A DNA stretch of 64,000 bases from Fulvivirga ligni (GTDB lineage Bacteria; Bacteroidota; Bacteroidia; Cytophagales; Cyclobacteriaceae). The position numbers and the translations under genes were made by a program. The stretch is taken from positions 4,011,001 through 4,075,000 of the forward strand of contig NZ_CP089979.1 of NCBI RefSeq assembly GCF_021389935.1, read 5' to 3'. Positions 6,593-38,295 of this stretch are shown here, piece after piece (the first letter of the stretch is position 1; each line of letters begins with the position of its first letter). Under the pieces are notes generated by a model. That model had not been told where the DNA came from and searched no databases. It was given only the letters and a program-made list of their open reading frames with translations.

Positions 6593-6612
6593 TTACTAAA
6601 TCGTTTTAGTAA
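6593..6612. promoter_or_regulatory. LacI-type operator-like palindrome upstream of block E
   Basis: TTACTAAATCGTTTTAGTAA: 8-bp perfect arms around a central CG, 18 of 20 positions symmetrical. It lies 56 bp before the GH2 start at 6537. Related palindromes occur upstream of 12926, 25062 and 38102. A central CG is usual for LacI-family operators; regulator identity is inference. Confidence 0.65.
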
Positions 6613-6631
6613 AAACATAAAATTTAGGGAA

Positions 6632-6659
6632 TACCGGTGGACTTATTGAGCCACCGGTA
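6632..6659 (-). terminator. Stem-loop at the end of block D
   Basis: A 9-bp perfect stem (TACCGGTGG / CCACCGGTA) with a 10-nt loop overlaps the stop codon of the SGNH gene. In the direction of transcription it is followed by a T-rich run (AAATTTTATGTTTTT). Probably a Rho-independent terminator separating block D from block E. Confidence 0.6.
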
Positions 6660-8028
6660 CAATCTTAAAATTATGTGTTTTAGGCTTGTTTAGCTTGTAG
6701 ATTAAATCGGCCAATGCTTCCTTTTGATCGTAATAGGTTTTACGAATGCTTTCAAACCTCATAGCCTCGTAAGTGTCCATTTTAGATTTCAACCAGAAGT
6801 TGTTTTCAGATTGCTTTCTGGCAAATTCAACGGCCTCATCATCATTCTGGAATAACATACCGTGCTCTAAAAAGAAGTCGAACTGGATCCAGTAGTATTC
6901 TCTTAGCTTATTGTCAATGTCTCTGATGGAATTGGCAAGGTGCCCCACTGTCCATGCTTGTCTGTATTGAGGTGTATTCTGTTGCAAAGCCAGATTAATT
7001 CCGTTATTTAAAGCCTGTGCATCCCAAATTCCGATGCTATCTCCGTCAATCAATAATTGATACTTGCCTGCTTTCAGGTTTTCTAATTTTAGCATCTCTC
7101 TGTTGAAATCCTGAGTAAAAGGAACCACGTCCAAAGCCAGGTTCATCTTCTGATCATTACCCCACATTCTGGAGCTGCTGTCCACCGGATAAGGTAAGGA
7201 TTTAGCTAAATAATCGAAGGTTATGCTACTTTTGCTGGCTTGCAGATTGCTGATCTTAGCATTGTTTTCTTGCAGTACTTTACCTTTTTTCAAGTCTATA
7301 CTTACCTCTGCTACAGGCGCTTCCAGGCCTTGTGCTTTTAAGAATAGATAGGCCATCACCAGATGACCACCATTGCCCGGGTGGATTCTATCAGGACCGG
7401 TGATGGTGAATTCAGGATTCGTTTTTTGTCCTTCTGTATTGATGGCTTGCATTGGATAATACAGATCAACAAAAGGCCAATTATACTTAGCTGCTTCCTC
7501 CTTCTGGAAAGCCACAATTCTTTCTATGGTTTTGCTTTTACCAGGGAAGTAGTTTTGCTCATTCTTCATAGTTTCATCATAAGGAGAAGTGCTCATGATG
7601 ATCTTTTCTACATTAGGTTTAGCCTTAAGCTTTTTAATGATCTCCTGGAAATACTTGTTAGATTCCTTCACCTTGTCATCAGCAAATTGCTGCGGATTAT
7701 CACCATTATACTCATGATAACCGGAGTCATTCATTCCAAATGTTACTACCACCACGGTAGGATTGAGCGCAAAAGCATCAGATTCTATTCGGGCATCAAT
7801 CTGTCGGGAAACATCTCCTCCGATACCTACATTGATCACCTCTATCCTACGATCAGGGAAATGAGTCATGTAGTAAAGCCAGATGTACTCTTCATAAAAA
7901 CCTGCCTCCGTGATGCTATTCCCCACAAAAGCCACCTTTTCACCTTCTTTGAATGGTTTCACAGTCTGCGCTAGCAAACTCCAGGAGAAACCGAGTAAAA
8001 TAATAACAGTAAAGCCTATTCTACGCAT
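6643..8028 (-). CDS. SGNH/GDSL-type esterase
   Basis: A 461-residue exported protein with a signal peptide ending SLLAQ. The N-terminal half is an SGNH hydrolase: block I VGNSITE (Ser38), block II Gly in GIGGDVSR, block III GMNDSGYH, and block V DRIHPGNGGH (Asp213, His216). Such enzymes deacylate sugars, usually as acetylesterases. The C-terminal half (about residues 235-461) is helical and unassigned; long PUL-associated GDSL proteins often carry such an extension. It is the last gene of block D, 2 bp after the GH92 gene, and followed by a stem-loop. With the SASA-type esterase this gives the locus two esterases, which suggests the target glycan carries ester groups. Confidence 0.85.
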   Translation of the reverse strand: MRRIGFTVIILLGFSWSLLAQTVKPFKEGEKVAFVGNSITEAGFYEEYIWLYYMTHFPDRRIEVINVGIGGDVSRQIDARIESDAFALNPTVVVVTFGMNDSGYHEYNGDNPQQFADDKVKESNKYFQEIIKKLKAKPNVEKIIMSTSPYDETMKNEQNYFPGKSKTIERIVAFQKEEAAKYNWPFVDLYYPMQAINTEGQKTNPEFTITGPDRIHPGNGGHLVMAYLFLKAQGLEAPVAEVSIDLKKGKVLQENNAKISNLQASKSSITFDYLAKSLPYPVDSSSRMWGNDQKMNLALDVVPFTQDFNREMLKLENLKAGKYQLLIDGDSIGIWDAQALNNGINLALQQNTPQYRQAWTVGHLANSIRDIDNKLREYYWIQFDFFLEHGMLFQNDDEAVEFARKQSENNFWLKSKMDTYEAMRFESIRKTYYDQKEALADLIYKLNKPKTHNFKIVPVAQ

Positions 8029-8030
8029 GA

Positions 8031-10382
8031 TTATTTAAGTTTATAGTTTGGTTCAGAACCCATAGTTAACTCCAGCTTCCCTCCTTCTTTGATATCTTCA
8101 AAATCAAGATATGGCTCGTTATGTGCCTTACCATTCAACTTGATCTCCTGGATATAGAGGTTTTCCGGGCTATTATTATGAGCTATGATTGTAAAAGTCT
8201 TTCCTTTGGCATATTTGGGATCCAGCTGAAACTGAATTTCATCGAATACCGGGCTGGTGATATCAATCCTGTTATTTCCAGGGCATACCTGATAAATGCC
8301 TGAAGCTGAAAGTATATACCAGGCCGACATTTGACCAACATCTTCATTGCCTACCAGTCCTTCCACGCCATCTTTGTAGCCTCTGTCGCAGATCAGTCTG
8401 GTCCATTTTTGGGTGAGCCATGGAGCATCTACATAGTTAAACAGGTATGGTACATGATGCACGGGTTCATTGGCATGGTTATAATATTCATTCCACATGA
8501 GGTTTTCCGGGGCTTTTTCGAAAAAGTTGGTCAGATCATCCTTCACTTCTTCTTTACCTCCCATCAGCTTGATCATACCATCTATGTCCTGAGGTACAAA
8601 CCACCCCTGTTGGTAAGGGTTGCTCTCTACGCTTCCATACCACTCTTTCAATCTGCCGCCTTCAGGCCAGGGCTCAAAGGAGCCATCTTTTCTGCGGGGA
8701 CGAAACCATGAAACTGAGTCGTCAAATATGTTTTTATAGCTCTCTGATCTTTTATAAAAGTCTTTGGCGATTTCCTTCTCTCCCATTAATTCGGCCATAT
8801 GAGCAGTACACCATTCCGTATAGGCGTATTCCAGGGTATTTGAAATACCAAGCGACTCATAGGTATAGCCCACCTCGTTGTTACCGAACTGATTATCAGT
8901 ATTTACCATGTACTTTAATGCTTTCTCCGCATCAAAATCTCTTATGCCTTTAGAGTAGGCATCCGAAATGACAGAAACGGCAGGATTACCGATCATACAG
9001 CCACTGTAGGCGTTGAGCAGCTCCCATCTTTCCAGGTAAGATTTGTCTTTTTCATCGGCCAGCGTTACCAGTGAGTTTATCATGTCATTCACCAATGAAG
9101 GATTAATGATGGTTTGCAGTGGAAACTGGCTTCTAAACACATCCCAACCACTGAAAATAGTCCTTTTTGTGAAATGCTCTGATTGGTGTGCTTCTCCGTC
9201 ACCACCCATATATTCACCACTCACATCCTCAAAAACTCTTGGGTCGATCATGGTGTGATATAGGGCCGTGTAGAAAACTTTCTTTTCTTCATCGCTGCCG
9301 CCAGCCACCTTTACTTTAGAAAGGGCGTCATTCCATAGCTGCGTAGCTTCGGACTTTAGCTTTTCAAAATCCCAATCCTTTATCTCTGCTTTCAAATTCT
9401 GCTCTGCTCCTTCTAAACTCACGAAGGAAATACCTGCTTTCAGTTGAATTTGCTCGTCCTTTTTGGTGTCATATTCGGCAAAGAAGCCCAGATGTTTGCC
9501 TTCAGCCTTGTCCACATTATGGGAAACTTTTGCTTCAGCTATTCTTTGTTGATAACGATCACTCTCAATGTCTTCTCTCTTCCTGGTCCAGTTATCAGGT
9601 ATGTCGGCTTCCCAGATTCCGTATTCCGTAAAAGGTCTGCTCATTTGGGCATAGAAATAAACTGTATAGTTGGCCTGACCATCGCCATTGCCCCAGCCAC
9701 CACCGTCAGGAGTACATTTCATCCAGCCACGAATGGTGTGATCATTAAGCACTTCGATGGATTGTAGTGTAGAGGTGCCTCCAACTCTTCGGGCTAGATC
9801 AATTTGAATGCGTGATTGCTTGTTTTCGGGGAAAGTAAACTGTAGCATGCCGCTGTGGGGCGCAGCAGTCATTTCCGCTTTAATGTTATAGTCACTTAGT
9901 GCGACACCGTAGTAGCCCGCAGAGGCAGTTTCACTTTTCTTATCATACGCTGAACGATATCCTGCCGAAGGGTTGTCGCCTTTGCCAGCAGCGGTATGCA
10001 ATTCACCCACTGAAGGCATAACAAGGAAGTTACCCATATCTCCAAACCAGCCTATTCCGCTCATTTGGGTAAAAGCAAAGCCCTCGATGGACGTATGCTC
10101 ATAACTATAGCCCGAGCCATTATCGCCTCCCGTGATGGTGTTTGGACTCACCTGCACCAGTCCATAAGGCGTGGTGGCACCTGGGAATGTTTTACCTAAC
10201 CCATGGTAGACGCCAGCAGCATCTGTGCTGGTGCTAGCCCCGATAAACGGGTTGACGAAACTGGCCGGAGACTCCACCCATGCTTCCTTTTCCGCTGTCG
10301 CTTCTTCAGCCCGTTGGGTGAAGGCACAGGCGTTGAGCATAAGCAATGCAGCCAGCGTACACGATTTACTAATTATTTTCAT
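8031..10382 (-). CDS. GH92 alpha-mannosidase lipoprotein
   Basis: A 783-residue lipoprotein (lipobox LMLNAC). Full-length GH92: N-terminal beta-sandwich with NPFIGAS and GLGKTFPGATTPYG, then the (alpha/alpha)6 barrel with CDRGYKDG, HANEPVHHVPYLF (Glu639, the usual general acid) and GNEDVGQMSAWY (Asp681 as base; the first base position is Asn679, a variant common in part of the family). The intact NEP motif predicts true exo-alpha-mannosidase activity, in contrast to the NQP enzyme at the left edge. The linkage (1,2, 1,3 or 1,4) cannot be read from sequence. It sits between the GH38-like and SGNH genes with gaps of 9 and 2 bp, so it is surely co-transcribed. Confidence 0.93.
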   Translation of the reverse strand: MKIISKSCTLAALLMLNACAFTQRAEEATAEKEAWVESPASFVNPFIGASTSTDAAGVYHGLGKTFPGATTPYGLVQVSPNTITGGDNGSGYSYEHTSIEGFAFTQMSGIGWFGDMGNFLVMPSVGELHTAAGKGDNPSAGYRSAYDKKSETASAGYYGVALSDYNIKAEMTAAPHSGMLQFTFPENKQSRIQIDLARRVGGTSTLQSIEVLNDHTIRGWMKCTPDGGGWGNGDGQANYTVYFYAQMSRPFTEYGIWEADIPDNWTRKREDIESDRYQQRIAEAKVSHNVDKAEGKHLGFFAEYDTKKDEQIQLKAGISFVSLEGAEQNLKAEIKDWDFEKLKSEATQLWNDALSKVKVAGGSDEEKKVFYTALYHTMIDPRVFEDVSGEYMGGDGEAHQSEHFTKRTIFSGWDVFRSQFPLQTIINPSLVNDMINSLVTLADEKDKSYLERWELLNAYSGCMIGNPAVSVISDAYSKGIRDFDAEKALKYMVNTDNQFGNNEVGYTYESLGISNTLEYAYTEWCTAHMAELMGEKEIAKDFYKRSESYKNIFDDSVSWFRPRRKDGSFEPWPEGGRLKEWYGSVESNPYQQGWFVPQDIDGMIKLMGGKEEVKDDLTNFFEKAPENLMWNEYYNHANEPVHHVPYLFNYVDAPWLTQKWTRLICDRGYKDGVEGLVGNEDVGQMSAWYILSASGIYQVCPGNNRIDITSPVFDEIQFQLDPKYAKGKTFTIIAHNNSPENLYIQEIKLNGKAHNEPYLDFEDIKEGGKLELTMGSEPNYKLK

Positions 10383-10391: not shown

Positions 10392-12926
10392 TTATCGTTT
10401 TACAGACTTAAAACCTTTTATTTTTAATGTTCTTATACCAAAATGAGGTATGCTTAGCGATACCGTCTTTTGGCCTTTGACGTCCTTTATTGGTAGTGTT
10501 TCAAGCACCTCTCCATTAAGAGCGACTAATTTTATTTCATCAAAATCACCATTCAGAGTTATGTTCTGAGGCTCTTCATTTCCTTCGGCATTAAACACAC
10601 GTACCAGCAAATCCTGATCATACTGCACTGAGATGAGCTCCCAACCCTGATTTTCGAAGTTGATGAGCGACTGATCATTGGCTTTTTTACTTATAATTTG
10701 GGCTGGCAACGATTCATTCCATGCTACACTTTGCATCCATATGCCTGCTTTATCCCATTTCTGCTGATGTGGAACAATGGCATATTTCATATGGGTATGA
10801 CCTTCCAGGCTGTAGTTTCTACCCCAAAGCCCTCTACCAGAGTACTGTACATTAAGCGCCAAAGGATGATCATCAGCATGTGCATAGCTGGTGGTATGAT
10901 CAGTGAAAAGCGCAACACCTTGATTATCATCACCATCCATCACATCCACCCAATTGAGGATGACATTATTTTTTATGCTGTCCCATCGATCAAAGAAGGT
11001 GGATTGCAGCCGACTTTCTGTGACATCAAATGGCGCATTTTTATATATTTTCTGGTGATCAAAAGCCAATGGAAAATGAACAAGCAACTTGTATTCATCA
11101 TTATAAAAGGCCTTTTTTGGGTCCTTGGCTTCATACTCTTCCATTTGTGAATATTTACCAATGCCCGGGCTGCCCTGCCAATCAATATCGAGTTCAAAAT
11201 CTATCCTCCCATCGGACTGATAAAGTGTGATCCACTGGGTAAAGGGGTGCTTATCGATATGACCTTTTACCGCTATGGTAGTTAACACGGGTCCATCATT
11301 TACGACCTCAATTTCAGCGGGATGGTCTTTACTAGAAATTAATTTATTCTGTTCATAAAAGTGCCCTCTTAGCTCGTTGAAAGCTCTTTGCGATTGTAGA
11401 TCCACCAGTTCCTTATTGCCATTCTTTTTATCGACCAAACTGGTGATAACACCTCCTTTGGTAGGATCGAGGGTAAGCTTATAAAAGGCAGTTTCAATGA
11501 TGGATTCGTTATTACTGAAGTGTTCCCCTGATTCTTGTTTCAGCTTTTCCACTTTGAAATAAGTCATCCCGAAGGGTTTTACTTTGCCTACAAATACCAA
11601 TTGTTTGCTTCCGTCAGCGGCTGTAATTACCTGAGCAGGAGTTTTCTGGCCATCGTCAGCAGTCAGTAAGACATTCTTGTTCCAATCTGGCTGTATGTTT
11701 ACACGAATAACATCCTCACGGTCAACCGCTTGAGTATTAAAGATTTTTATATATTCCCCGTAAGCTATATCCTGTGCAGCGCCAAGTACTTGCTGTGTTA
11801 CGCTATCGCTGATGGCATTGGTGCTGTGTGTCCAGTCCACCACTTTATCAGCCCAGGTGTCTCCTTTTCTGCCATTGTAGGGCACAATCCAGCAATCATG
11901 ATGCTGTGATAGTAAAATGGTGCGCCAGGCCTCATCGAATCTGCTTTGTGGCCAGGTGGTTTGATGGGTAGCTTTTGAAAAGGCCGATGCTTTTTCAGCC
12001 ATGGTAATTTTGTTTTCTGAGGTGCGTACTTGCTGCGCTATTCTCTGCAATACCTGAGCTCCCCAAACCAGGCTGACCTTGATATCTTCCTGGCTAAAAT
12101 CCCATTGACTGGTAGGTTGTTTCACAGCATAATCCTCGAAATAATCTGTCCAGGTGACATATTGTGAAGGTCTATAGGTGGATTTCGCAATGCCTAGCCA
12201 TGGGCCACCTTTCCAGCCGGCATCTTGCAAACACATGCCCACGGGGTGCTCAATGCCTTGAGCCAGAGCCGCTTTCACATAAGTATCACTGTTGCCCCAG
12301 GCAGTGGTTTGCCAGGTAGAATTCTTTTCAAAAGCCTCACTTTCATATCTGGTGACGGTGTTAATCATGGTTTTGTCTGGTCCTTCCCAGCCTACCAGTT
12401 CACCACCATAATTCTGCACATAGCCACCCCAGCAGGTATTGGGGTTTTTCAAAACGGCATTTTTAAAACCAAATGATTTTAATATCTGAGGCAAAGCACT
12501 GGTAAAACAAGGCTCTTCGGAGGAATAAGTGGTGTAGCTAAAGCCAGGGAAATGTTCATTCAATCGTCTGATACCCAGATCAAACTGCCGAATAATAGAC
12601 TCCCCTGAAATATTATATAAGTAGGCCTGACCATAGGCAGGATTTACAATGTCGATTCGTTCGGATAGCTCAGGATTTTTCATGGCTTGTTGAAATTCTA
12701 CGTAAGCCTCAGGGTCGTAAACCTTTACCGAATCCCAGGTCTCAGGCTCTATTTCCAGATTGATTTTCCAATCAGGATGCGCCTTGAGCTTTTCTACCAT
12801 GAAGTGGGTCTGCCATCTTGGATAATGACCATAAATACCCCCATGATATCCGTCCACAAAATAAGCTTGCTGAGCTAACACTATTTGAGGAAACAGCACG
12901 ATCAGCAATAACCATCTTATTTTCAT
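10392..12926 (-). CDS. GH38-like alpha-mannosidase with divergent active-site motifs
   Basis: An 844-residue exported protein with signal peptide ending IVLAQ. GH38 features are seen: GESIIRQ near residue 110, SALPQIL at 143-149, QHHDCW (the conserved His-His-Asp zinc-ligand region, about residue 335) and a long C-terminal beta-sandwich half. Two key motifs differ from textbook GH38. The N-terminal H-x-D zinc motif is replaced by VDGYHGGIYGHYP, and the nucleophile stretch (Asp eight residues before LPQIL) reads SSEEPC, placing Glu137 at that position. It may belong to a separate GH38 clade of PULs with altered metal binding or specificity. First gene of block D; an operator-like palindrome lies 40 bp upstream. 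Confidence 0.8.
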   Translation of the reverse strand: MKIRWLLLIVLFPQIVLAQQAYFVDGYHGGIYGHYPRWQTHFMVEKLKAHPDWKINLEIEPETWDSVKVYDPEAYVEFQQAMKNPELSERIDIVNPAYGQAYLYNISGESIIRQFDLGIRRLNEHFPGFSYTTYSSEEPCFTSALPQILKSFGFKNAVLKNPNTCWGGYVQNYGGELVGWEGPDKTMINTVTRYESEAFEKNSTWQTTAWGNSDTYVKAALAQGIEHPVGMCLQDAGWKGGPWLGIAKSTYRPSQYVTWTDYFEDYAVKQPTSQWDFSQEDIKVSLVWGAQVLQRIAQQVRTSENKITMAEKASAFSKATHQTTWPQSRFDEAWRTILLSQHHDCWIVPYNGRKGDTWADKVVDWTHSTNAISDSVTQQVLGAAQDIAYGEYIKIFNTQAVDREDVIRVNIQPDWNKNVLLTADDGQKTPAQVITAADGSKQLVFVGKVKPFGMTYFKVEKLKQESGEHFSNNESIIETAFYKLTLDPTKGGVITSLVDKKNGNKELVDLQSQRAFNELRGHFYEQNKLISSKDHPAEIEVVNDGPVLTTIAVKGHIDKHPFTQWITLYQSDGRIDFELDIDWQGSPGIGKYSQMEEYEAKDPKKAFYNDEYKLLVHFPLAFDHQKIYKNAPFDVTESRLQSTFFDRWDSIKNNVILNWVDVMDGDDNQGVALFTDHTTSYAHADDHPLALNVQYSGRGLWGRNYSLEGHTHMKYAIVPHQQKWDKAGIWMQSVAWNESLPAQIISKKANDQSLINFENQGWELISVQYDQDLLVRVFNAEGNEEPQNITLNGDFDEIKLVALNGEVLETLPIKDVKGQKTVSLSIPHFGIRTLKIKGFKSVKR

Positions 12927-12966: not shown

Positions 12967-12986
12967 CAATTAAATCGATTTAGTAA
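12967..12986. promoter_or_regulatory. LacI-type operator-like palindrome upstream of block D
   Basis: CAATTAAATCGATTTAGTAA: the right half is identical to the best site at 38212-38231 and the left half is degenerate. It is 40 bp before the GH38-like start. Confidence 0.6.
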
Positions 12987-13033: not shown

Positions 13034-13081
13034 GGGCCTTCTAAAACTAATTTTCATTTGCTAAATCAGTTTAGAAGGCCC
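13034..13081 (-). terminator. Stem-loop at the end of block C
   Basis: Arms GGGCCTTCTAAAACT and AGTTTAGAAGGCCC pair over 14 bp with one bulged A and a 19-nt loop, 9 bp past the GH43 stop codon. No clear T-tract follows, so termination is likely but not certain. The inner part (CTAAATCAGTTTAG) also resembles the operator palindrome. Confidence 0.55.
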
Positions 13082-13090: not shown

Positions 13091-15595
13091 TTATTCCTTA
13101 ATCACCTTTTTGGACAGAACAAAAGCCTCTGACTCTATCTTAATAATGTAAATTCCTGGCTTCACCTTAGTACCATTTTCATTTTTTCCTTGCCATTTGA
13201 TGATCTCTTTTTGAGAAGACAGATTCATTTCTTTTGAAAAGACAATCTTACCTGAGAAATCATAAACAGTCATAACTCCTTGAGTAGGCTCTTCTATTTC
13301 TAACGGTATTAATACATCATCCTCAAAAGGCATAGGATATGGTTTTTTATCTAAACTCTGTCTTGGGCTTATTTTGGGAATGCTGTTGCTGGCCATGGTG
13401 TCTTCAAATAACTCCAATTCTGAAAGTTGTAATATATTTCCACTATTATTATTAAAATTAAATTTATAATATCTGTAAGCTGTATTATTACTAATGGAGA
13501 AACTTCTGGCTTGAAACCTATTATTAAAATCTTCATCATTACGCGTGTCCAATGTATGCCAGGTTACACCATCAGCACTTCCTTCCAAGGTCCAGCTTAG
13601 AGGGTCTCGCTGCGGGTTATCATTGGCTGAGACGAGCTCATAACTTCTGATAATATGACTCTCATCTGCCTGATATTCTATGTAGCAGTTAGGGTTTAAG
13701 GTAAGGTATTTGGTATCAATATTATTATCAATCAAATTACCCAACCCCTCGCCTATCGGCGAATCTGAATATTGGCTTGTGAGCACTCCTCCTAAATCTG
13801 TAATGCCAATACTTCCTGGTCGTAAAGGTTCACCGTATACTTCCACCTCGTATATTGAATAACCCCAGATGGTAGCCCTGGTAGTACCCAATATTCTGAA
13901 ATATCTACCACTTGTATTTAGGTCATTATGATCATTTACAATAGAGTTATTGGCGGTAACTGACTTAACCGTAGACCAATTAGAGCCATCTTGCGATACT
14001 TGAAGTTCGTAGTTAGAAGCATATGCTCCCTCCCACGTTATTTTTACATTTCTAATATTATAATTTTGTTCCAAATCCACATATAGCCATTGAGGGTCAC
14101 TGTATTCACTTTCCCAGCGACTATCTGTTTTGTCGCCATCAACAGCCAGACCACCAGCATTACCACCAATAAATGAACTTGCAACCACAGGCTGGTTAAA
14201 GGCCCTATTAGGTGCAATATAACGGTTGCCAAAAATTGAGAGCTCGTATATTGAGTATCCCCAAATGGTGCCGCGCGTAGCACCAAATATTCTAACAAAC
14301 CTCCCACGGGCATTAAGATTGTTATAACTGACATCGAGTTCCGTATTTCCGGTTATCGACCTTACAGTAGTCCAGCTGCTGGCATCTTCCGATACCTGAA
14401 TCATATAGTTACTACCATAGGCATTTTCCCACAAAATATCTACCTGGCTAATATCATAAATGCCACCTAGATCAACGTAAACCCACTGATAATCAGTATA
14501 TTCGCTCTCCCATCGTGTGCTTATGTTATTGTCTGTTATATTACTTCCAATGTTACCGCCAAAAGTTGATGAAGCAATCACCGGCTTTCCGGAGGCAATG
14601 TTGATGCTTCCTAACGGCCTTTTTTCTACACCTTGATTGGTCATTTGTATAGGTTGGATAAAGCCATTTCCATCAAAATACATCTTATCTATACAGGTAT
14701 ATCGGTGATTTCCATCATTATCACCCAAGGGTTTCCTATGATAAACCATGTACCATTCATCAGCCTCTGGCACCTGAATAATTGAATGATGGCCAGGCCC
14801 TGAAGCTATCTGATCATTGCCCTGGAGCACGGTGGCGACTCTATCAAAGGGACCAAACGGGCTGTCACTGACGCCATAGGCCACTCTATAATTACCAGCA
14901 AACCAAAGACCTTCAGACCACATTAAGTAGTACTGATTGTTTCTGCGGAACATTACTGGTCCTTCAACATAATCAGGGTGTGGGGTGATCTCTCTAAAAA
15001 CAGAGCCATCTTCGAACGGTACAAATCCCGTGAAATTATCATTGAGTTTCACTATGTTACAGTGACCTTCTCCCCCATATAGCATATAAAATTGTCCATC
15101 TACATCCTGAAAAATAGATTGATCTATAGGTTGAGCTCCATTGTGATATTCACCTAGTAGCGGAGCCCCAATAAGATCTACGTAAGGGCCTGCAGGATTA
15201 TCGGCAACACAAACACCAATAGCATTATCAAAATCAATACCCTCAGCGCTGAAGAAGAAATAGTACTTGCCATCCTTCTCAGCTATACCAGGAGCCCACA
15301 TACATCGATCAGCCCAGGTGACAATATCATTATTTACAATGCTGTTGTGCTTAGTCCAGTTGACCAAATCGGGTGATGAGAAAGCATCAAAATAAGTCTG
15401 ATCCACACAGTCAATGGATGAAGTTGGAAATATCCAATATTCTTCATTTAATACTGCAGCATCAGGGTCGGCATACCAGCCTTCTATCACTGGATTTCCG
15501 GCATATTGTTGCGCTTTGCATATGCCACTTGTGAGCATGATAAGAAGCACGAGGTAGCTACTACCTCGCGCCTTTTCTGTGAATCTTCTTCTCAT
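13091..15595 (-). CDS. GH43 glycosidase with three discoidin modules and T9SS tail
   Basis: I start at the ATG at 15595, which overlaps the upstream stop (TGATG); a TTG one codon earlier is less likely. The 834-residue protein has a signal peptide ending ICKAQ and a five-bladed GH43 propeller with WYADPD (Asp43, base), IDQSIF (Asp158) and VEGPVMF (Glu211, acid). GH43 enzymes mostly release arabinofuranose, xylose or galactose, so this probably trims side chains; specificity is unknown. Two typical CBM32 modules follow (about 331-457 and 460-590), then a divergent discoidin domain (about 600-735) and a T9SS sorting domain (YPMPFEDDV ... GIYIIKI). Last gene of block C. Confidence 0.88.
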   Translation of the reverse strand: MRRRFTEKARGSSYLVLLIMLTSGICKAQQYAGNPVIEGWYADPDAAVLNEEYWIFPTSSIDCVDQTYFDAFSSPDLVNWTKHNSIVNNDIVTWADRCMWAPGIAEKDGKYYFFFSAEGIDFDNAIGVCVADNPAGPYVDLIGAPLLGEYHNGAQPIDQSIFQDVDGQFYMLYGGEGHCNIVKLNDNFTGFVPFEDGSVFREITPHPDYVEGPVMFRRNNQYYLMWSEGLWFAGNYRVAYGVSDSPFGPFDRVATVLQGNDQIASGPGHHSIIQVPEADEWYMVYHRKPLGDNDGNHRYTCIDKMYFDGNGFIQPIQMTNQGVEKRPLGSINIASGKPVIASSTFGGNIGSNITDNNISTRWESEYTDYQWVYVDLGGIYDISQVDILWENAYGSNYMIQVSEDASSWTTVRSITGNTELDVSYNNLNARGRFVRIFGATRGTIWGYSIYELSIFGNRYIAPNRAFNQPVVASSFIGGNAGGLAVDGDKTDSRWESEYSDPQWLYVDLEQNYNIRNVKITWEGAYASNYELQVSQDGSNWSTVKSVTANNSIVNDHNDLNTSGRYFRILGTTRATIWGYSIYEVEVYGEPLRPGSIGITDLGGVLTSQYSDSPIGEGLGNLIDNNIDTKYLTLNPNCYIEYQADESHIIRSYELVSANDNPQRDPLSWTLEGSADGVTWHTLDTRNDEDFNNRFQARSFSISNNTAYRYYKFNFNNNSGNILQLSELELFEDTMASNSIPKISPRQSLDKKPYPMPFEDDVLIPLEIEEPTQGVMTVYDFSGKIVFSKEMNLSSQKEIIKWQGKNENGTKVKPGIYIIKIESEAFVLSKKVIKE

Positions 15596-25388: not shown

Positions 25389-25415
25389 AAGATTATCACT
25401 ACCTCTGATAATCTT
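25389..25415 (-). terminator. Perfect 10-bp stem-loop after the import operon
   Basis: AAGATTATCA and TGATAATCTT pair perfectly around a 7-nt loop, 17 bp past the stop of the propeller lipoprotein gene. The stem is AT-rich and no T-tract follows, so it could be a weak terminator or an RNA processing or stabilising hairpin closing block A. Confidence 0.5.
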
Positions 25416-29800: not shown

Positions 29801-29964
29801 TCTACGTCTGTGGACATACCGGTGTTAGTACCTTTTTTAATGATGTTCACTCCTGGCAGGCTTTCTCCATCATCTGAAGTGACTTTACCTCTCACCACCA
29901 TTTCCTGAGCGTAGGAAAGCTGGGCGGTGAAGGCGATGATCAATAGCAGTATAATTTTTTTCAT
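26893..29964 (-). CDS. SusC/RagA-type TonB-dependent outer-membrane transporter
   Basis: A 1023-residue outer-membrane protein with signal peptide ending AQLSYAQ. It has a carboxypeptidase-D-regulatory-like domain (about 22-95, GKVTSDDGESLPGVNI), the SusC plug signature EEVIVVGYG (about 97-105), SGRMPGFFSQQ, FFIRGVSSL and ILKDASTTAIYGIKGANGVLVIKT, then a 22-strand barrel region ending in LGIQIGF. It imports oligosaccharides with TonB energy, together with a SusD lid. Here the SusD gene precedes it by 20 bp, the reverse of the usual SusC-SusD order. This is the more canonical of the two SusC proteins. Confidence 0.95.
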   Translation of the reverse strand: MKKIILLLIIAFTAQLSYAQEMVVRGKVTSDDGESLPGVNIIKKGTNTGMSTDVDGNYMLKANKGDVLIFSFIGFKTKEIQIGDQQQLNVVLSMDLTSLEEVIVVGYGEVKRITNTGSVSAISAKDVQTVPTPNIQNTLSGRMPGFFSQQRSGQPGRDASDFFIRGVSSLNAEGNRPLIIVDDVQYTYDQLQQINVNEIESISILKDASTTAIYGIKGANGVLVIKTRRGKEGKPKINFRVEGGVQTPVRTPEFLDSYNTALLVNEAYENDGLQPIFTEEDLELFKNGEDPYGHPNVNWYDEIFKKYATQQNMNLDVSGGTDRLKYFISGGAFAQNGLVKDFSDPFNEVNNNYFYRRFNFRTNLDFDVTKSLKMRLDVTSRFGNINEPYNQNAIGEIYNFAQIRPYSAPLYNPNGSYAYAFDTEGKLPTLNARLANGGYRRTRRTDTNVLFGLSQDLSDLVEGLSVSARIAYSSIEENSKSLFRSGFPSYHYDSENSTYTIHPSKQYKFDGYTSLGDIGVFTKNVNIQGFLNYDKQINDDHTIKALLFYNRQSNTVDKDGFTSANVPQNFVGYTGKLSYNYRNKYLIDLNGAYNGSDRFGEDNRYGFFPAVGLGWTISEENFFSVPFVQLLKLRTSYGLVGSDATSGNRYLFNQVYSPGGGYFFGTATTGYPTIYEGDLGNPNVVWEKARKFDVGLDMNLFKNKLTLTVDYFYDFRYDQLVPRGSVPNIIGIGTSPTNIAETVNRGFDGKLGYETNITKDLFFNTSLVFSIAKNKVIYKDEAQPAFPWLAETGHPINQPFGYTWVGYYSEEDIARNNDENPDNDVPVPLNDTEIQAGDLKYKDLSGDGIINDLDKSAIGKPNLPNTTLGLSTGFSYKGLSINVLFQGSFNYSFSVVGTGIEPFKSQFQPIHQQRWTPENADNAEFPRLTSNPTTVNSSSAYMSDFWLVDAWYIRLKTVDIGYVLPQKFLPGNIENARVYLSGYNLLTKTSYDKYQQDPEISTNTAGDAYLNQRVVNLGIQIGF

Positions 29965-31720: not shown

Positions 31721-34700
31721 TTATAGTTTTATTTTGATACCACCACTAATCACCTTCTGAATAGGATAATTGTAGAAACTTGTTACTTCAGGATCTACCT
31801 GATCATAAGCTGCTTCGGTGAATAGGTTTTGGCCATTCATGAATAGCTTCACTTCTGACACACTCTTATTTCTAAACCAGTGTTGTGGGAGTGTGTAGGC
31901 TATACTTAGATTCTTTAGTCTGAAATAGTCACCTGAGTGAACGAAGAAAGAAGTGTTGTAATCTGGAGCGTTATTCACGTTTCTACCTGCAGAGAGTCTT
32001 GGGTAAGTCGCCGTTTCGGCTGTCTCTGGTGTCCATCTGCCAATGATAGGTTCATAGGCCTGACCATAACTCTGGCCCGCCGTCTGGAAGCCTGCCTGCA
32101 TGGCTAAATCAGCCACATAGATATCTCTATTGTAAGCACCCTGAAGCAAAGCACTCACTTCGAAACCTTTGTAGTTGAAACCAGCTGTGATGCCATAGTA
32201 GCTCAAAGGCTTAGTATTACCAATCGGTTGGATATCGTTGATATCAATGACACCATCATTATTCATGTCTTTGTATTTGATATCACCTGGCTGCACCTCA
32301 ATACCATCAAAAGTGGCACTGTTGGCGATTTCCTCTTGTGAATTGAAGAAGCCATCAGTCTCCAGGCCGAAAATGGTGCCTACTGGCCTGCCTGTTTGTC
32401 TGGTGTAATCAAATTCTCTAAACTGTTCATCAATGAAAAGCACTTCCGTTTCCATTCTGGACCAGTTTCCGGTAACAAAATAATTGAAGTTGCCCAGGTT
32501 ATTCTGGTAGGTTAGAGAGAGCTCTAAACCTTTGTACAGGTTCTCTCCAATGTTCTCTACCGGGTAAGCTAATCCCATAAGAGCTATGCTTTTACCTCTG
32601 ATCTGAAGTAGATCATAATACTTGTCATAATAATAATCAGCGGTAAACTGAAGGTGATTATCCATTACAGCTACGTCGGCACCAATATTCAGCTTGTTAG
32701 CCTTCTCCCAGCTGATATTCGGGTTTGCTAAGCCGTTTGGAGCTTCACCATTTCCTGGTCCTCTGGAATAACCCTGAGGGTAAGTTCCTTCAAGCACTGT
32801 GGTTCGGTATGTCTGCCTCCAGATGTAATAGCCTGAGTTATCAATACCATTACCGGTTTTACCATATACTCCTCTGATTTTCAATTGGTTTAACCAATCT
32901 GTTGAACTTAAAAAGTCTTCTTTGGATATATCCCAACCTAAGCCTAAGGCGTAGAAAGTGCCCCACTGATCATCAGTAGGATATCTATTGAAACTACTGA
33001 AGTCTATGGCCGCTTCAGCAAAGTATTTACCGTCGTAATCGTAATTTACTTTAGCCGCTACGTTATTAGACTTAGCTGGCAAATCATAGTTCACAGATAC
33101 TATTCTCTTGTCACCAAAGATCATGGCTCCCAGATTATGCTTTCCTACCTGCTTTTCATAATTCAGAGAAAGCTGACCATACCAAAAGCGGGTGCTAGCC
33201 ACGTTTACGAATGAGTTAGACTGAGGAATGTTTGAGCCATAAGGCGAATAAGACCCAGCGCTTTCTTCTGTAGGCGGAGTATACTCATAAACCGTATTTT
33301 GCTTATTTCTAACAATAGCAGTAAGGTTCTGCGTAGACATGTTAGTGACTCCTTTTACTGATAAGCCTTCTACAAAATCACCCAGGTCATAATTGAGCTC
33401 CACGTTTGCCATGATATCTCTGCTGTTATCCTGGATATAGCCGGAGTTAATGGTTTGGGCATACAGGTTTACCGGAAAAGAAACATTACCAGCATATGAG
33501 TCATCTTCATTATACACCGGATAGGCAGATCCTGGCGTGTTAACCAGACCTGATAATATAGCTCCTGTACCAGCTCCGGGTTGATTTCCCTCTTGTACTC
33601 TTCCAAAAAGTGTTACTCCTACCTCAAAATCATCCGTTACATCTACCGCTACACTGGAAGTAAAAAGATATCTGTTAAGCTCCAGATTAGTGTTGTAGCT
33701 ATTGATATCGGAGGTTTTGAATAGCCCTTCCTGATTGAGATAGTTTAGACTTAATGAATACCTGGCCACTTTGCCACCACCGTTAACATTTAAGTTGTAA
33801 GTGGATATAGGGGCATTCTTCTTCAGCACCTGATTATACCAGTTTACATTGGGGTGAGTGTATGGACTAGTACCATCTCTGAAAGCCTGGAAGTCCTCAT
33901 CGGTATAAGCCGCTGTTTGGCCATCATTTAGCAATGCTTCATTTAGCAAGTAAGCATACTGATAAGTAGGTAATGGCTTAGGCATGTTCAAGGGAGTCTG
34001 CACTCCTATTTCACCCGAAAAAGACAGTTGAAACCTATCCGCTTCTGGCTTTCTGGTGTTTACCAAAACCAGACCTCTTGAGCTTCGCATTCCCAACAAA
34101 ATGGATGATAAGGCGTCTTTTTGTACTGAAATAGATTCTATGTTTTCAGGATCTATTGAGTAAATATCTCTTTGGATACCGTCAATCACGGTTACGGGAC
34201 CCTGACCTCTTAGTGATAAGGCAAACATGGTGTTGTCTGTAGGTACTGCGTTGTTAGTTTGCGGTACCTGTCCTACTATATCGCTATTGGTATTACCTGA
34301 AGTATAAGTATTTCTAATACCTCTGTACTGCTGTACATAAAGCCCTGGCATTCTACCCGCTAAGGCAGCTGCATAATTGGGTGATAAGGTAGTATTTATT
34401 TGATCAGTATACACCGTTGAAGTAGCTCCCAGCATACTTTTTCGGTCTTTCTCACCGTACAAAACAGGTAAAATCTCCGGGCTTTGAAGGTACCTTTCTA
34501 TGAGACTGATCACCAGTTCATTATTTTGGCCTGTAACAAACTCAAAGGTGGCATAATCAGGATGAGTGAACACAAGAACACTACTTGATGACGCTTGTAT
34601 TTCAAATTGCCCTTCTGCGTTAGTAACAGTGCTGGTTTCCTGACCTTCTACAGAAACGTTTACGCTTTCTATGGCATTACCATAACTGTCCTGAACTATT

Positions 34701-34819
34701 CCTTTTACGGAAGTATCCTGAGCCTGAACTGCATGTGAGAGCAGAGCGACAGCTAACAGTGTAAATATGGTAATGCTCCTTTTTAAATAAAGATTAAGCA
34801 TATATTCAATATTTTTCAT
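31721..34819 (-). CDS. Divergent SusC-type TonB-dependent transporter
   Basis: A 1032-residue outer-membrane protein with signal peptide ending HAVQAQ and a carboxypeptidase-regulatory-like domain (about 35-110). The plug is recognisable (LAGRMPGLYVQQ, SVQKDALSSILLGMRSSRGLVLVNT), but the usual VVVGYG box is replaced by PVLYGEKDRKSML. The barrel ends in GGIKIKL. The plug has an unusual loop rich in Asn/Thr before SLRGQGP. It follows the DUF4961-like gene by 11 bp and precedes SusD by 5 bp. It probably imports a second or differently sized product of the same glycan. The missing box raises the question of how it couples to TonB. Confidence 0.92.
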   Translation of the reverse strand: MKNIEYMLNLYLKRSITIFTLLAVALLSHAVQAQDTSVKGIVQDSYGNAIESVNVSVEGQETSTVTNAEGQFEIQASSSSVLVFTHPDYATFEFVTGQNNELVISLIERYLQSPEILPVLYGEKDRKSMLGATSTVYTDQINTTLSPNYAAALAGRMPGLYVQQYRGIRNTYTSGNTNSDIVGQVPQTNNAVPTDNTMFALSLRGQGPVTVIDGIQRDIYSIDPENIESISVQKDALSSILLGMRSSRGLVLVNTRKPEADRFQLSFSGEIGVQTPLNMPKPLPTYQYAYLLNEALLNDGQTAAYTDEDFQAFRDGTSPYTHPNVNWYNQVLKKNAPISTYNLNVNGGGKVARYSLSLNYLNQEGLFKTSDINSYNTNLELNRYLFTSSVAVDVTDDFEVGVTLFGRVQEGNQPGAGTGAILSGLVNTPGSAYPVYNEDDSYAGNVSFPVNLYAQTINSGYIQDNSRDIMANVELNYDLGDFVEGLSVKGVTNMSTQNLTAIVRNKQNTVYEYTPPTEESAGSYSPYGSNIPQSNSFVNVASTRFWYGQLSLNYEKQVGKHNLGAMIFGDKRIVSVNYDLPAKSNNVAAKVNYDYDGKYFAEAAIDFSSFNRYPTDDQWGTFYALGLGWDISKEDFLSSTDWLNQLKIRGVYGKTGNGIDNSGYYIWRQTYRTTVLEGTYPQGYSRGPGNGEAPNGLANPNISWEKANKLNIGADVAVMDNHLQFTADYYYDKYYDLLQIRGKSIALMGLAYPVENIGENLYKGLELSLTYQNNLGNFNYFVTGNWSRMETEVLFIDEQFREFDYTRQTGRPVGTIFGLETDGFFNSQEEIANSATFDGIEVQPGDIKYKDMNNDGVIDINDIQPIGNTKPLSYYGITAGFNYKGFEVSALLQGAYNRDIYVADLAMQAGFQTAGQSYGQAYEPIIGRWTPETAETATYPRLSAGRNVNNAPDYNTSFFVHSGDYFRLKNLSIAYTLPQHWFRNKSVSEVKLFMNGQNLFTEAAYDQVDPEVTSFYNYPIQKVISGGIKIKL

Positions 34820-34830
34820 GGTGGTTTAGA

Positions 34831-35871
34831 CTAGTTACAGCGTAAAGCATAGCTGTAAGGCTGGTTAGTATCTTCATCTCCTAAATCATCCATAATCTGA
34901 ATAGCGCCATCAGCGCTTGTAAATGAATAAGAGATGGAGGAAATGATTTCATCTTCGGCTATGCCAAAATAGGAAGCCGGCCACATGGTAAGCTCGAAGG
35001 TATTACCAAATCGAAATGGATTCTTCATCGCTGATTTTGCCTCCCGATTACACACTTCGTAAACCTTGCCGTTATCAGTGTAGGCCGTAGCGCATAGGTA
35101 AACCTCATCGGCTCCCTGAAGATCGTTGTCTTTGATATCGCCCTGATAAGTAAAGGTTACAAGATCATCTTTAGTGGAAAATACAGGTTGTACAGAGTTA
35201 ATGTGAAGCTCACAAAAATCTATTACATCTCCCTCACCATCAGTTACTTCAAAACAATCTGTAACTAGCATGTCGGTGTAGTTTCCGGAGCGTGTACCAT
35301 CTTCTGTTTCTGCAATAACAAACATGGGCCTTACCCGCATATTCTGAGCACCCAGCTTTACTTTCAGGTCTACATCTATATGTATATCTTCTTCATTTTG
35401 TACAGCATAGGTTTTGTCTGACCAGTAAACAATCCACTCCATGTCGTTAATCACATTAGGACCAACACCATATTTGTTTCTCAGCGCTACTTTCCAGGTT
35501 TGCTTTTCGCCACCACCTTCATCACTCCAGTTGGCAAGTGTATTATCTGGTATCAGCGACATGGTGCCCACCATGCCTTCTTCCAGGTCACTAGTGTAAG
35601 TGACAACAGTGTTTTGGGCTGCTTTCCAGCTTTTAGGAGCTAGAAATCCGATAACCATTCTGGCGCCACTTCTTCCATCCGCTACATCGAAAAATGGATG
35701 CACGGTGAAGGTAACTTCTTCGCCTGCTTTGCCTGACTCCGGGTGATCCACTTCGCCTTCGAAAGAAACACAGGTCATCATGAAAATGCCAAGGAGCACA
35801 ATGGCCACTTTGCTGTGCCACCATCCTCGTTTTAACTTCAAATTGATCTTCATTACGTTCAGATTTTTCAT
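34831..35871 (-). CDS. DUF4961-like PUL lipoprotein
   Basis: A 346-residue protein with an N-terminal hydrophobic segment and a possible lipobox (GIFMMTC). Its ATG overlaps the upstream stop (TAATG), implying translational coupling. The body is beta-rich (VTFTVHPFFDVADG, NDMEWIVYWSDKTY, LCATAYTDNGKVYEVC), with Cys pairs toward the end. From memory it fits DUF4961, often next to DUF5004 and SusC/SusD in Bacteroidota; I could not search. It is probably a surface or outer-leaflet accessory of the SusC complex, for example a glycan-binding or assembly subunit. No catalytic motif was recognised. Confidence 0.65.
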   Translation of the reverse strand: MKNLNVMKINLKLKRGWWHSKVAIVLLGIFMMTCVSFEGEVDHPESGKAGEEVTFTVHPFFDVADGRSGARMVIGFLAPKSWKAAQNTVVTYTSDLEEGMVGTMSLIPDNTLANWSDEGGGEKQTWKVALRNKYGVGPNVINDMEWIVYWSDKTYAVQNEEDIHIDVDLKVKLGAQNMRVRPMFVIAETEDGTRSGNYTDMLVTDCFEVTDGEGDVIDFCELHINSVQPVFSTKDDLVTFTYQGDIKDNDLQGADEVYLCATAYTDNGKVYEVCNREAKSAMKNPFRFGNTFELTMWPASYFGIAEDEIISSISYSFTSADGAIQIMDDLGDEDTNQPYSYALRCN

Positions 35872-36317
35872 TATTCAGCGGATCTTTTCATGGTATATTC
35901 ATATACATTTGAGCTACAGCCGGGGCTAAAAACCAGCTTCAGTCGTCTCTCACCATCTACCACAGGATAGTTGAGCTTGGTTTGCACCGTTTCTTTACCT
36001 GTCTCGTCAAATGATATATTGAATGGATATAAGGGATCATCCACTGCCCAATTGCCTTCTCCTTTTACTATGAAGGGTACATAGTTATCAATGGTGTAGG
36101 TATAGTCCGGGTTGAAATGAATTTTGAATGTAGTGAAATCAAAACCTGCCGTAATATCCTGTCCGTTACGCGTAACAGCGGTAATCTGCCAGGTCCCGTC
36201 TATGCTTTTCTCTGCTTCTTCTGCTATCTGTGTATCATCATTAAGAGAACACGCCCATAGAGACACGCTGAGCAGTGAAAACAAGCATAATCGCTTTACT
36301 TGTATAAGTGCTTTCAT
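35871..36317 (-). CDS. DUF5004-like small lipocalin-type lipoprotein
   Basis: A 148-residue lipoprotein (lipobox SVSLWAC). The pattern DGTWQITAVTRNGQDIT followed by alternating strands (FKIHFNPDYTYTI, GNWAVDD) is that of lipocalin-like DUF5004 domains found in PULs. Function is unknown; a small beta-barrel binding a ligand is plausible. It sits 24 bp after SusD and overlaps the DUF4961-like gene. The pair lies between a SusD and its presumed SusC, which suggests they are part of that transport complex. Confidence 0.65.
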   Translation of the reverse strand: MKALIQVKRLCLFSLLSVSLWACSLNDDTQIAEEAEKSIDGTWQITAVTRNGQDITAGFDFTTFKIHFNPDYTYTIDNYVPFIVKGEGNWAVDDPLYPFNISFDETGKETVQTKLNYPVVDGERRLKLVFSPGCSSNVYEYTMKRSAE

Positions 36318-36341
36318 ATTCTTAAGGGGTTGATTTAAATT

Positions 36342-38102
36342 TTAGTAATATGGATTTTGAAGCATTTCAGGGCTTTTACCCACTTCGCTCTGAGGAATAG
36401 GCCAATAGTAGAGGGCATCTCTGAAGATGTGCTTTCTCACATTAAACTTATTGTAGCTTACAGCCTCACCATTGCGCTTTACTTCCATACCAGTCATGGT
36501 ATTGGCCTGAGTTTCTTCGGCTATCATCCATCTTCTTACATCCCAGAATCGGAATCCTTCAAAGGCAAGTTCTACCCTTCTTTCATGATGGATCACCTCT
36601 CTCATAGCTTCTTTAGAAAGGCCTGCTGGTAGTATAAATGGATCTAAACCAGCTCTTTCCCTCACTGCTTCTACAGCTTGATATACTTCTGAGATGGGAC
36701 CACTAAATTCATTAGTTGCCTCAGCAAAATTGAGTAATACCTCAGCGTATCTAATCAGAGGACGCGACTGTGGGCCTCCTATCCAATAGTTAGCAACTAT
36801 CTCTCTGTGAAGCATTTTGTTAGTGTAATAACCTGTAGGAGTGCCTGTAAATACTGCATCTTCAGAAGCAGCGGATCCTTGATATGTGCCAGTATAGATA
36901 TCAACCGGGGTCAATGATCCTGCAGGGACAATTAGCTGTGTCTGATCATAAATGATGGAATTATAAAATCTGGGATCTCTACCCACATAAGGATCTTGAG
37001 GATCATAACCAGACGATGGGTCAGTGATTAATTTACCGTTGCTCATGGCAAAAGCATCTACTGTTTCCTGATAAGGAAAGCCGCCACCACCTGTTCCACC
37101 TCTGGATGGTGGTTGGAAAAGCCTTTCTCGACCCTGGCCCTTATCTTCCATCTTCATCAAAATGATGCACTGGTCAATGGGATCACCATTACCTATAGCG
37201 TCGCTGGCTATAAAAAGGCTATAGAAACCACGGCCGGGTTCCTCTGAGTTATCGTTGAATAATTTAAAGACTTCCAAATTAATGAGGTCTTTAGCGGCAT
37301 CTGCGGCCAGTTTCCAACGGTTAGCATCAAAGCTAGCATAACCTAGTATTTCCTTAAGATCACCAGAAGCAAAATCGCTACCGTTATGCAAAGGGCTGGC
37401 AGCGTGCAGTAGCATTCTGGCTTTAAGACCCATACATGCACCAGCTCCTACCCTACCAAAATCACGACCTCTAGGTCTGATGGCCAATACCTTAGCTGCT
37501 TCATCGCATTCAGAAACAATGTAGTTCACACACTGCTCATAAGTAGCACGCGCACCAGAAATCTCACCCTCAGCAGTGTAGATTTCATCTCCAATTAACG
37601 GTACACCACCATAATGCTGCACCAGCAGGTAATAGTACCAGGCCCTCAAAAATCTACCTTCAGCCGCGTATTGTGCTTTAAGGTTATCATTCAGAGGTGC
37701 ATTTGGAAGGTTCTTTAATAGCTGATTAACCTTCCTGATGTTTCGATAAGGAATGTTCCAGGGATCACTGCTGATAATAATGGGATTTACGGTGCCAGTG
37801 ATAAACTGTATGTCAGTGGTGATGGCATTGATAATTCTCGGTTCGGATTCATCAGATGCCGTTTGCAGACCTCCAGTGGTCTGAGGGAAAAATCCGCCAC
37901 TATTAAAACGGGCCGGACTGTTACTGAACCCAATATCTCTGTAGATATCGAAGAGAAACTGGGTAGTGTACGCACTATCAGAAAAAACTACCTCTTCATT
38001 GAGGTTAGTGGTTTCCGTTTCATCAAGAAATCTCTCTTCCTGACAGGACCAGCCAAGTCCCCCTAATAATGTCAGGATTAGCAAATAGTAAGTGTTCTTC
38101 AT
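36342..38102 (-). CDS. SusD/RagB-type glycan-binding lipoprotein, first gene of the PUL
   Basis: A 586-residue lipoprotein (lipobox LGGLGWSCQE). SusD features are AEGRFLRAWYYYLLVQHYGGVPLI, the Cys-containing VNYIVSECDEAAK, LIRYAEVLLNFAEATNE, HHERRVELAFEGFRFWDVRRW and YYWPIPQSEV. It is the first gene of block A, with three operator-like palindromes 110-193 bp upstream. Having SusD first, separated from SusC by two small lipoprotein genes, is unusual. Its likely SusC partner is the divergent one at 31721-34819. Confidence 0.95.
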   Translation of the reverse strand: MKNTYYLLILTLLGGLGWSCQEERFLDETETTNLNEEVVFSDSAYTTQFLFDIYRDIGFSNSPARFNSGGFFPQTTGGLQTASDESEPRIINAITTDIQFITGTVNPIIISSDPWNIPYRNIRKVNQLLKNLPNAPLNDNLKAQYAAEGRFLRAWYYYLLVQHYGGVPLIGDEIYTAEGEISGARATYEQCVNYIVSECDEAAKVLAIRPRGRDFGRVGAGACMGLKARMLLHAASPLHNGSDFASGDLKEILGYASFDANRWKLAADAAKDLINLEVFKLFNDNSEEPGRGFYSLFIASDAIGNGDPIDQCIILMKMEDKGQGRERLFQPPSRGGTGGGGFPYQETVDAFAMSNGKLITDPSSGYDPQDPYVGRDPRFYNSIIYDQTQLIVPAGSLTPVDIYTGTYQGSAASEDAVFTGTPTGYYTNKMLHREIVANYWIGGPQSRPLIRYAEVLLNFAEATNEFSGPISEVYQAVEAVRERAGLDPFILPAGLSKEAMREVIHHERRVELAFEGFRFWDVRRWMIAEETQANTMTGMEVKRNGEAVSYNKFNVRKHIFRDALYYWPIPQSEVGKSPEMLQNPYY

Positions 38103-38211
38103 AAGGGTTATATTTCATTAGCGTTGTTTTAATTGCAATTCGGAAACGATTGCTTAATTCATCTTAAATAAAGCCATCAGATCTGAGCATGCTATTGCCA
38201 ATTGTTGATGT

Positions 38212-38231
38212 TTACTAAAACGATTTAGTAA
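38212..38231. promoter_or_regulatory. LacI-type operator-like palindrome upstream of block A, best copy
   Basis: TTACTAAAACGATTTAGTAA: 8-bp perfect arms around a central CG, the strongest of the set. It is 110 bp before the first SusD start. The 313-bp gap 38103-38415 contains this site, two overlapping sites (38263-38295) and a long hairpin (38317-38360). Confidence 0.7.
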
Positions 38232-38262
38232 ATGTATAAAAATTTTATCGTTAATCAAGTAT

Positions 38263-38295
38263 TTCTGCAATCGTTTTAGTAAATCGATTTAGGAA
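38263..38295. promoter_or_regulatory. Two overlapping operator-like sites
   Basis: TTCTGCAATCGTTTTAGTAA (38263-38282) keeps the right half only. TTAGTAAATCGATTTAGGAA (38276-38295) keeps both halves with one mismatch each. They overlap by 7 bp and their CG centres are 13 bp apart. Together with 38212-38231 they could allow cooperative or looped repressor binding. Confidence 0.55.

Follow-up and report, generated by a model that had tools for sequence, protein, structure and literature searches.

A LacI-family protein encoded in a mannoside utilization locus of Fulvivirga ligni would, with high probability, be a local and probably autoregulated repressor of that locus, with a series of 20-bp palindromes between the genes as its operators. 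The palindromes lie mainly in a 64-kb stretch of DNA (the window; G000:C1:4011001-4075000, in a genome of one 6.52-Mb contig), where the original prediction had placed a shared operator before four blocks of a polysaccharide utilization locus (PUL). The mannan-digestion cluster runs past the left window edge, and every gene in it is on the minus strand, transcribed leftward; coordinates left of the edge continue the window numbering below 1 (subtract 20000 from the L008 position). The sites are indeed shared and upstream, but they precede five putative units, probably including the regulator's own, and a sixth site (O6) lies outside the window. That at least one site heads each of the five units, the LacI unit among them, argues for a local LacI circuit, and the whole resembles a sugar-repressor system of the usual kind, seen with unusual clarity.

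Palindromic sites

The five good sites of the window, at 6593..6612 (O1), 12967..12986 (O2), 25292..25311 (O3), 38212..38231 (O4), and 38276..38295 (O5), are close to TTACTAAA(A/T)CG(A/T)TTTAGTAA, as is O6 at -3952 to -3933 (G000:C1:4007048). All six are even palindromes with a CG centre, symmetric at 7-9 of 10 positions, which agrees with the LacI-family operator form first proposed for O1 to O4; each of those four was recovered in place with its CG. Two overlapping copies had also been proposed at 38263-38295. Both match, and 38276-38295 (TTAGTAAATCGATTTAGGAA) is a good site (score 25.5, five-site matrix), but one half of 38263-38282 (TTCTGCAATCGTTTTAGTAA) is degenerate (score 15.8). From the centre of O4 to that of O5 is 64 bp, or roughly six turns of the helix. 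As predicted, the five good window sites are intergenic and upstream of gene blocks, with the next start codon at 40-229 bp (229 bp for O3 and 173 bp for O5); O6 is 33 bp upstream of the first gene for a major facilitator superfamily (MFS) sugar transporter.

When 94 kb were scanned with the five-site matrix, the best match after its own five sites was TTATAAAATCGATTTAGTCA at -3952 (20.3), followed by the degenerate copy at 38263; the remaining matches all scored 12.1 or less. A six-site 20-bp matrix gives the sites 22.4-27.1, whereas the best score among 200 dinucleotide shuffles of 84 kb is 20.5, a comparison that is circular because the matrix was made from the same sites; with each site left out in turn, the six score 19.0-25.3 and take ranks 1-6 in 84 kb. 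Matches to CTAAATCGATTTAG with up to three mismatches number 8 in the window against 4.18 expected, but 7 of 100 shuffles reach 8, so this count is not significant alone. In a scan of the whole genome, which had been suggested as a check, the motif was not equally common elsewhere: both exact copies of the 14-bp core CTAAAWCGWTTTAG are in the cluster, as are 5 of the 19 places with up to one mismatch (binomial P 2e-7, for a 47-kb cluster span chosen after the fact) and 6 of the 22 places that match the 20-mer with up to three mismatches. Genome totals compare with reversed-pattern controls as 19 vs. 15 (core), 22 vs. 26 (20-mer), and 20 vs. 11 (a pattern from relatives' sites); being near or not far above the controls, they indicate that the signal is in clustering and positioning rather than in the genome total.

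Three further candidates were set aside. A weak look-alike at 13061 (CTAAATCAGTTTAG) sits in a hairpin with 12-bp arms and was rejected as an operator. A site at -5467, upstream of the LacI gene, scores 9.0 and was not counted; the gap there folds into a strong hairpin. A site at G000:C1:4731738 is between converging genes and was taken as chance; its score of 25.3 shows how little can be concluded from a high score by itself in a 6.5-Mb genome.

Regulator gene

A PF00356 profile search of the genome returned seven LacI-family genes, none of them in the 64-kb window, as had been noted. From this absence a distant regulator had been proposed; instead, a LacI gene is found only 5.5 kb past the left edge, at -6554 to -5529 (minus strand; G000:C1:4004446-4005471; L008:13446-14471), with its PF00356 domain at G000:C1:4005307-4005453. 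It is flanked by two MFS sugar transporter genes (-7893 to -6523 and -5434 to -3986, both on the minus strand), with GH130, GH92, and GH92 genes upstream, all in the direction of the PUL. Because O6 precedes the MFS-LacI-MFS unit and orientation is shared, we place the LacI gene in the same cluster, probably under its own operator; the search for a LacI-family gene near the motif, also suggested originally, thus ended within the locus.

The protein has 341 amino acids, a helix-turn-helix (PF00356, 32.1 bits vs. a cut-off of 27), and a periplasmic-binding-protein-like ligand domain (PF13377, E 7e-27; PF00532, E 6e-23). Its closest solved structure is 1rzr, CcpA (E 4e-41), and its hinge RPNQFAQGL aligns with RPNAVARGL of 1rzr, including the leucine. 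In LacI-family proteins, the hinge-helix leucine inserts at the central CG of the operator. A gene in the cluster that encodes a helix-turn-helix, a ligand domain, and a CcpA-like hinge counts in favour of the local LacI protein as the binder. The gap between the LacI gene and the preceding MFS gene (-5528 to -5434; L008:14472-14566) contains a 13-bp hairpin (-23.4 kcal/mol, z -5.6) without a clear T-run, which may adjust how strongly LacI is expressed compared with the transporter.

A second LacI protein (G000:C1:5763455), 55% identical to that of the cluster and encoded beside a ROK sugar kinase, might itself bind these operators, or do so together with the cluster protein. The two have near-identical recognition helices (ISKTAVSFILNG and ISKTTVSFILNG), and a related operator occurs between the paralogue's ROK and LacI genes; yet that site fits the matrix less well (16.5), the paralogue is about 1.7 Mb distant, and the cluster has a LacI gene of its own behind the same operator, so we consider binding by the paralogue unlikely. 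At the five other LacI loci of the genome, the best scores are 1.1-14.0 (3 kb each; the 3 kb of the cluster LacI gene, with O6 outside, give only 9.0).

Association of site and regulator across genomes

Like sites accompany relatives of the cluster LacI protein elsewhere. Among 147 genomes of the family, 131 have a LacI match at E 1e-30, the closest being those of G047 (70%), G107 (54%), G127 (51%), and G101 (47%); G162, from another family of the same order, has a relative 63% identical. We compared a first set of ten relatives (nine from other genomes and the paralogue; 39-40 kb each, 395 kb in total) and a second set of 20 further relatives from 19 genomes (14-20 kb each, 389 kb) with a 400-kb control of 20 stretches at hand-picked round positions, which are not random draws. 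The second set comprises 20 of 25 rank-ordered relatives, omitting second copies in G070, G045, and G142 as well as G029 and G079; G047 and G078 contribute to both sets. Five loci of named relatives were only 25-33% identical and were not used.

With the own-six matrix at 16 or above, the first set gave 11 matches in 9 of 10 regions, the second 11 in 10 of 20, and the control one in 1 of 20, and 20 shuffles of the second set averaged 0.35 (maximum 1). Counts for first set, second set, and control were 25, 23, and 2 at a threshold of 12; 15, 13, and 1 at 14; and 6, 7, and 0 at 18. An 18-site matrix, trained on own and first-set sites and hence independent only of the second set, found 34 matches at 15 or above in 17 of the 20 second-set regions, as against 0 of 20 control regions and a shuffle mean of 1.0 (maximum 3). 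The putative operators are of a quality that allows sites to be predicted next to relatives elsewhere.

The positions of individual sites agree with this. In G047, the SusD orthologue (61% identical to the window SusD-like protein) is directly behind a site scoring 22.9, and the orthologue of the O1 GH2 (46%) is behind a weaker one (16.3); the G162 sites are in front of SusC. Except in G016 and G025, the relatives have almost the same recognition segment (TTVSFILNGKAKEKRIS or a close variant), in keeping with the operator; the sole match of the 18-site scan in G016 falls inside a reading frame. In three loci (L092, L093, and L096), paired sites 22 bp apart, about two helical turns, precede a SusC-like gene of equal length, a tandem operator. 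In a chitin-type subclade (L083-L086), the operator of the ROK gene has a CC/GG centre rather than CG, for example TAGATAAAACCTTTTAGCAT.

Transcription units and proposed mechanism

The O4/O5 unit comprises genes for SusD-like (36342..38102), DUF5004 (35871..36317), DUF4961 (34831..35871), SusC-like (31721..34819), SusD-like (29985..31715), SusC-like (26893..29964), and DUF5005 (25433..26875) proteins. Behind O3 are genes, assigned by domain, for a lectin-type protein (22720..25062; ricin-B-like, F5/8-type-C), two GH2 enzymes (18558..22610, with three F5/8-type-C domains; 15595..18561, with F5/8-type-C), and GH43 with F5/8-type-C (13091..15598). The O2 unit consists of GH38 (10392..12926; PF07748, PF01074), GH92 (8031..10382; PF07971), and a GDSL esterase (6643..8028; PF13472). 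O1 heads a GH2 gene (3577..6537; exo-glucosaminidase/mannosidase-like, with F5/8-type-C), a SASA-type acetylesterase gene (2091..3572; PF03629), a GH92 gene cut by the left window edge (-193 to 2071; 1..2071 inside), and, outside the window, a second GH92 (-2546 to -300) and a GH130 gene (-3843 to -2644). O6 heads the MFS-LacI-MFS unit.

Hairpins with perfect 9-14-bp arms stand directly upstream of the operators at four of the five unit boundaries: before O1 at the GDSL gene end (6632..6659, minus strand, 9-bp arms), before O2 (13034..13081, minus strand, 12-bp arms, terminator-like, the one that holds the look-alike at 13061), between the DUF5005 gene and O3 (25389..25415, minus strand, 10-bp arms), and before O5 at the upstream PUL boundary (38317..38360, 14-bp arms). 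This supports separate transcription units at those four boundaries; an inverted-repeat search upstream of O6 found none.

By domain, the cluster holds three GH92 genes together with GH38, GH130, and GH2 genes, the mannoside content expected of the targets of a ManR-like regulator. Its GH130 scores >520 bits to 3qc2 and 5a7v but 44 bits to UHGB_MP; we take the group of 3qc2 and 5a7v to be active on beta-1,2-mannosides.

In the mechanism that we propose, a LacI dimer would occupy each 20-bp site, with one helix-turn-helix per half and the hinge helix at the central CG. Without substrate, it would repress five units (SusD-SusCD, lectin-GH2-GH43, GH38-GH92-esterase, GH2-GH92-GH130, and its own MFS-LacI-MFS), and a mannoside-derived sugar, imported by the MFS transporters, would release it. 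We infer binding, repression rather than activation, the inducer, and autoregulation from features legible in the sequence itself, namely the sites and their positions, the regulator gene, the likely unit boundaries, and the association of regulator and site across genomes.

The distances between site and gene bear on the sense of regulation. Among 60 oriented sites, a set that includes the look-alikes at 13061 and L008:5149, 40 have the predicted start codon within 110 bp, 5 of them at no more than 25 bp (0-23 bp); three of four distal sites elsewhere in the genome are also within 23 bp. CcpA and some other LacI-family proteins act as activators too, and the placement of O3 and O5, like that of the 10 of 60 sites at least 250 bp upstream, would suit an activator or dual regulator instead of a simple repressor; but activation is hard to picture from the 40 sites at 110 bp or less, the closest 5 included, and we think such a role improbable. 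The nearest sites, including the three distal ones, favour repression, and the far ones are neutral or speak against it.

Several observations weigh against a local mannoside repressor. The 10 far sites and the 229 bp between O3 and its gene are among them, as is the promoter geometry: the Bacteroidetes promoter box is TAnnTTTG, and the commonest offset at which it overlaps the operator accounts for just 9 of 60 sites, with 7 for the next. With the threshold lowered to 12, as many as 16 matches turn up in shuffled second-set sequence (mean 5.85), compared with the 23 observed; 10 of the 20 second-set regions have no own-six match at 16 or above, and three (G045, G108a, and G142) have no 18-site match at 15 or above. 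The relatives share history, so that their matches are not all independent. The paralogue, with its similar site (16.5), could share these operators, and the proposed inducer is guessed from the genes present. The paralogue and the relatives in G107 and G127 (51-55% identical) are beside ROK genes, with no GH92 in about 40 kb. Our confidence in the local repressor, although high, is slightly lowered because the relatives after the two closest are without GH92 and because the control for the LacI clade is weak.

Hybrid sensor

A hybrid two-component system (HTCS) protein encoded at 50835-54917 had been suggested to act with the regulator or to be replaced by it, and it might alternatively control the PUL by itself, in which case the palindromes would have no role or would bind another protein. 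In the part of PMC3878776 drawn on here, alpha-mannan loci of Bacteroides thetaiotaomicron have HTCS proteins as their assigned regulators. In the present genome, nothing was found that ties the HTCS to the sites: its gene, on the plus strand, is 12.5 kb beyond the upstream end of the PUL and hence not adjacent to it, and the interval holds YceI, GSDH, efflux, TetR, SUFU, FKBP, and BAAT-type (acyl-transferase-like) genes plus frames without Pfam domains. GH62 and GH10 genes are downstream of it on its own strand, the HTCS_Man motif consists of direct repeats and not of a CG-centred palindrome (PMC3878776, in part), and the palindromes track LacI across genomes. Control by the HTCS is therefore very improbable. 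The plus-strand stretch 50835-63990 of the window encodes the HTCS, an AraC-type regulator (59973), GH62 (60687), and GH10-CBM60 (61987); the HTCS may belong to a xylan locus instead, of which this stretch is perhaps the start. Together with SusC/SusD and type IX sorting domains, the HTCS points to a member of the Bacteroidota.

Gene neighbourhoods of the LacI clade

In phmmer searches with own-cluster and relative proteins, the 30 neighbourhoods included ROK in 23, SusC in 22, GH92 in 9, and GH18 in 9, compared with 0, 3, 1, and 0 of 20 controls; the neighbourhoods span 39-40 kb (first set) or 14-20 kb (second set) and the controls 20 kb. A relative in G151, 55% identical, was outside this comparison. 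The G047 neighbourhood has GH92, GH2, SusCD, sulfatase, and ROK genes and that of G162 has GH38, GH92, MFS, and SusCD genes; being in alpha-mannosidase loci, these two closest relatives are predicted to serve mannosides. G101 has three GH92 genes and GH125. Chitin is probably the substrate for part of the clade: the GH18 of G001, the only one tested, is closest to chitinases, and the idea that GH18 beside the relatives is an N-glycan endoglycosidase was dropped on that account.

Candidate targets elsewhere in the genome

The pattern from relatives' sites occurs at 20 places in the F. ligni genome, 5 in the cluster and 15 outside. Four of the 15 (4608451, 4631342, 6209992, and 6219222) are within 15 kb of non-cluster GH92 genes (P 2.4e-4, post hoc); likewise post hoc, three are within 10 kb (P 0.0014) and five at up to 20 kb, the fifth of them in a reading frame. 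In the same order, the four are 75, 7, 23, and 0 bp upstream of genes for GH92, a sulfatase, a beta-mannosidase-type GH2, and CutC (then GH92). With two other patterns, the outside places near those GH92 genes number 0 of 16 (20-mer) and 2 of 14 (core), for which reason we treat the distal targets as candidates and not as a result; the two additional GH92 loci are accordingly weaker candidate targets than the cluster. Support comes from G101, where the LacI gene is inside a locus that resembles the one at 4.60 Mb (GH92 genes, GH125). At two other GH92 loci (5.64 and 3.30 Mb; 20 kb scanned at each), site scores stay at or below 13.0.

The region G000:C1:4592000-4631400 (L135-L137) is a second alpha-mannosidase PUL, with four GH92 genes, GH125, two SusCD pairs, a sulfatase, and two ECF-type sigma genes, and it contains the operator-like sites 4608451 and 4631342. 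At the other locus (L156), the operator-like sites 6209992 and 6219222 are directly before the beta-mannosidase-type GH2 gene and the CutC-GH92 pair. Three more putative sites of this genome score 19.9-22.1: the one at 4149673 precedes GH43, that at 4228820 precedes MFS, and that at 5319770 precedes the gene for a DUF285 protein.

Relation to known systems and significance

In the parts of the sources used here, a survey of the LacI family reports autoregulation for 72% of the regulators studied and names the mannose/mannoside groups ManR (Ravcheev et al., 2014; PMC4052901); its local sugar regulons resemble the present one in their even CG-centred palindromes and in sites upstream of sugar genes, and it included one taxonomic group of the Bacteroides phylum. 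For B. thetaiotaomicron, Ravcheev et al. (2013; PMC3878776) predict that ManR of the GntR family and HTCS_Man control genes for mannose and alpha-mannosides, SusCD and alpha-mannosidases among them, whereas a LacI-family protein is the likely regulator here. LacI control of two separate sugar loci has been predicted comparatively in another member of the Bacteroidetes, Algoriphagus marincola HL-49 (UxuR2; PMC5507952), but for hexuronates rather than mannosides, and the likeness is one of regulator family and not of operator. A xylan locus of Rhodothermus marinus likewise has a LacI gene, at its head, in a SusCD-containing glycan locus, although its substrate is xylan and the part of the report cited describes no operator (PMC6987092). 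In titles and abstract openings of mainly non-subscription literature, no LacI operator of a GH92 locus was described, although several of the papers, such as PMC11278836 and PMC4891872, contain the words.

On a wider reading, a single LacI subfamily, its recognition helix almost unchanged and its operator the same, would extend through an order, fixed in the DNA that it recognizes but with cargo that changes among alpha-mannoside, chitin-type, and ROK kinase loci. The three GH92 loci of F. ligni (4.00-4.05, 4.60-4.63, and 6.21-6.22 Mb) would then form a single regulon for mannosides or N-glycans; at the second locus it would be superimposed on ECF sigma control, and two paralogous repressors might share it. 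We regard this as a tentative possibility, somewhat doubtful as a whole; the lack of GH92 after the two closest relatives and the weak LacI-clade control lower our confidence in it slightly, as they do for the local circuit. Mannan loci are assigned hybrid two-component and GntR regulators in B. thetaiotaomicron, in the part of the study cited (PMC3878776); here, the regulator is apparently a LacI protein encoded inside the locus, and the motif can serve directly to annotate loci for mannosides and chitin across this group.

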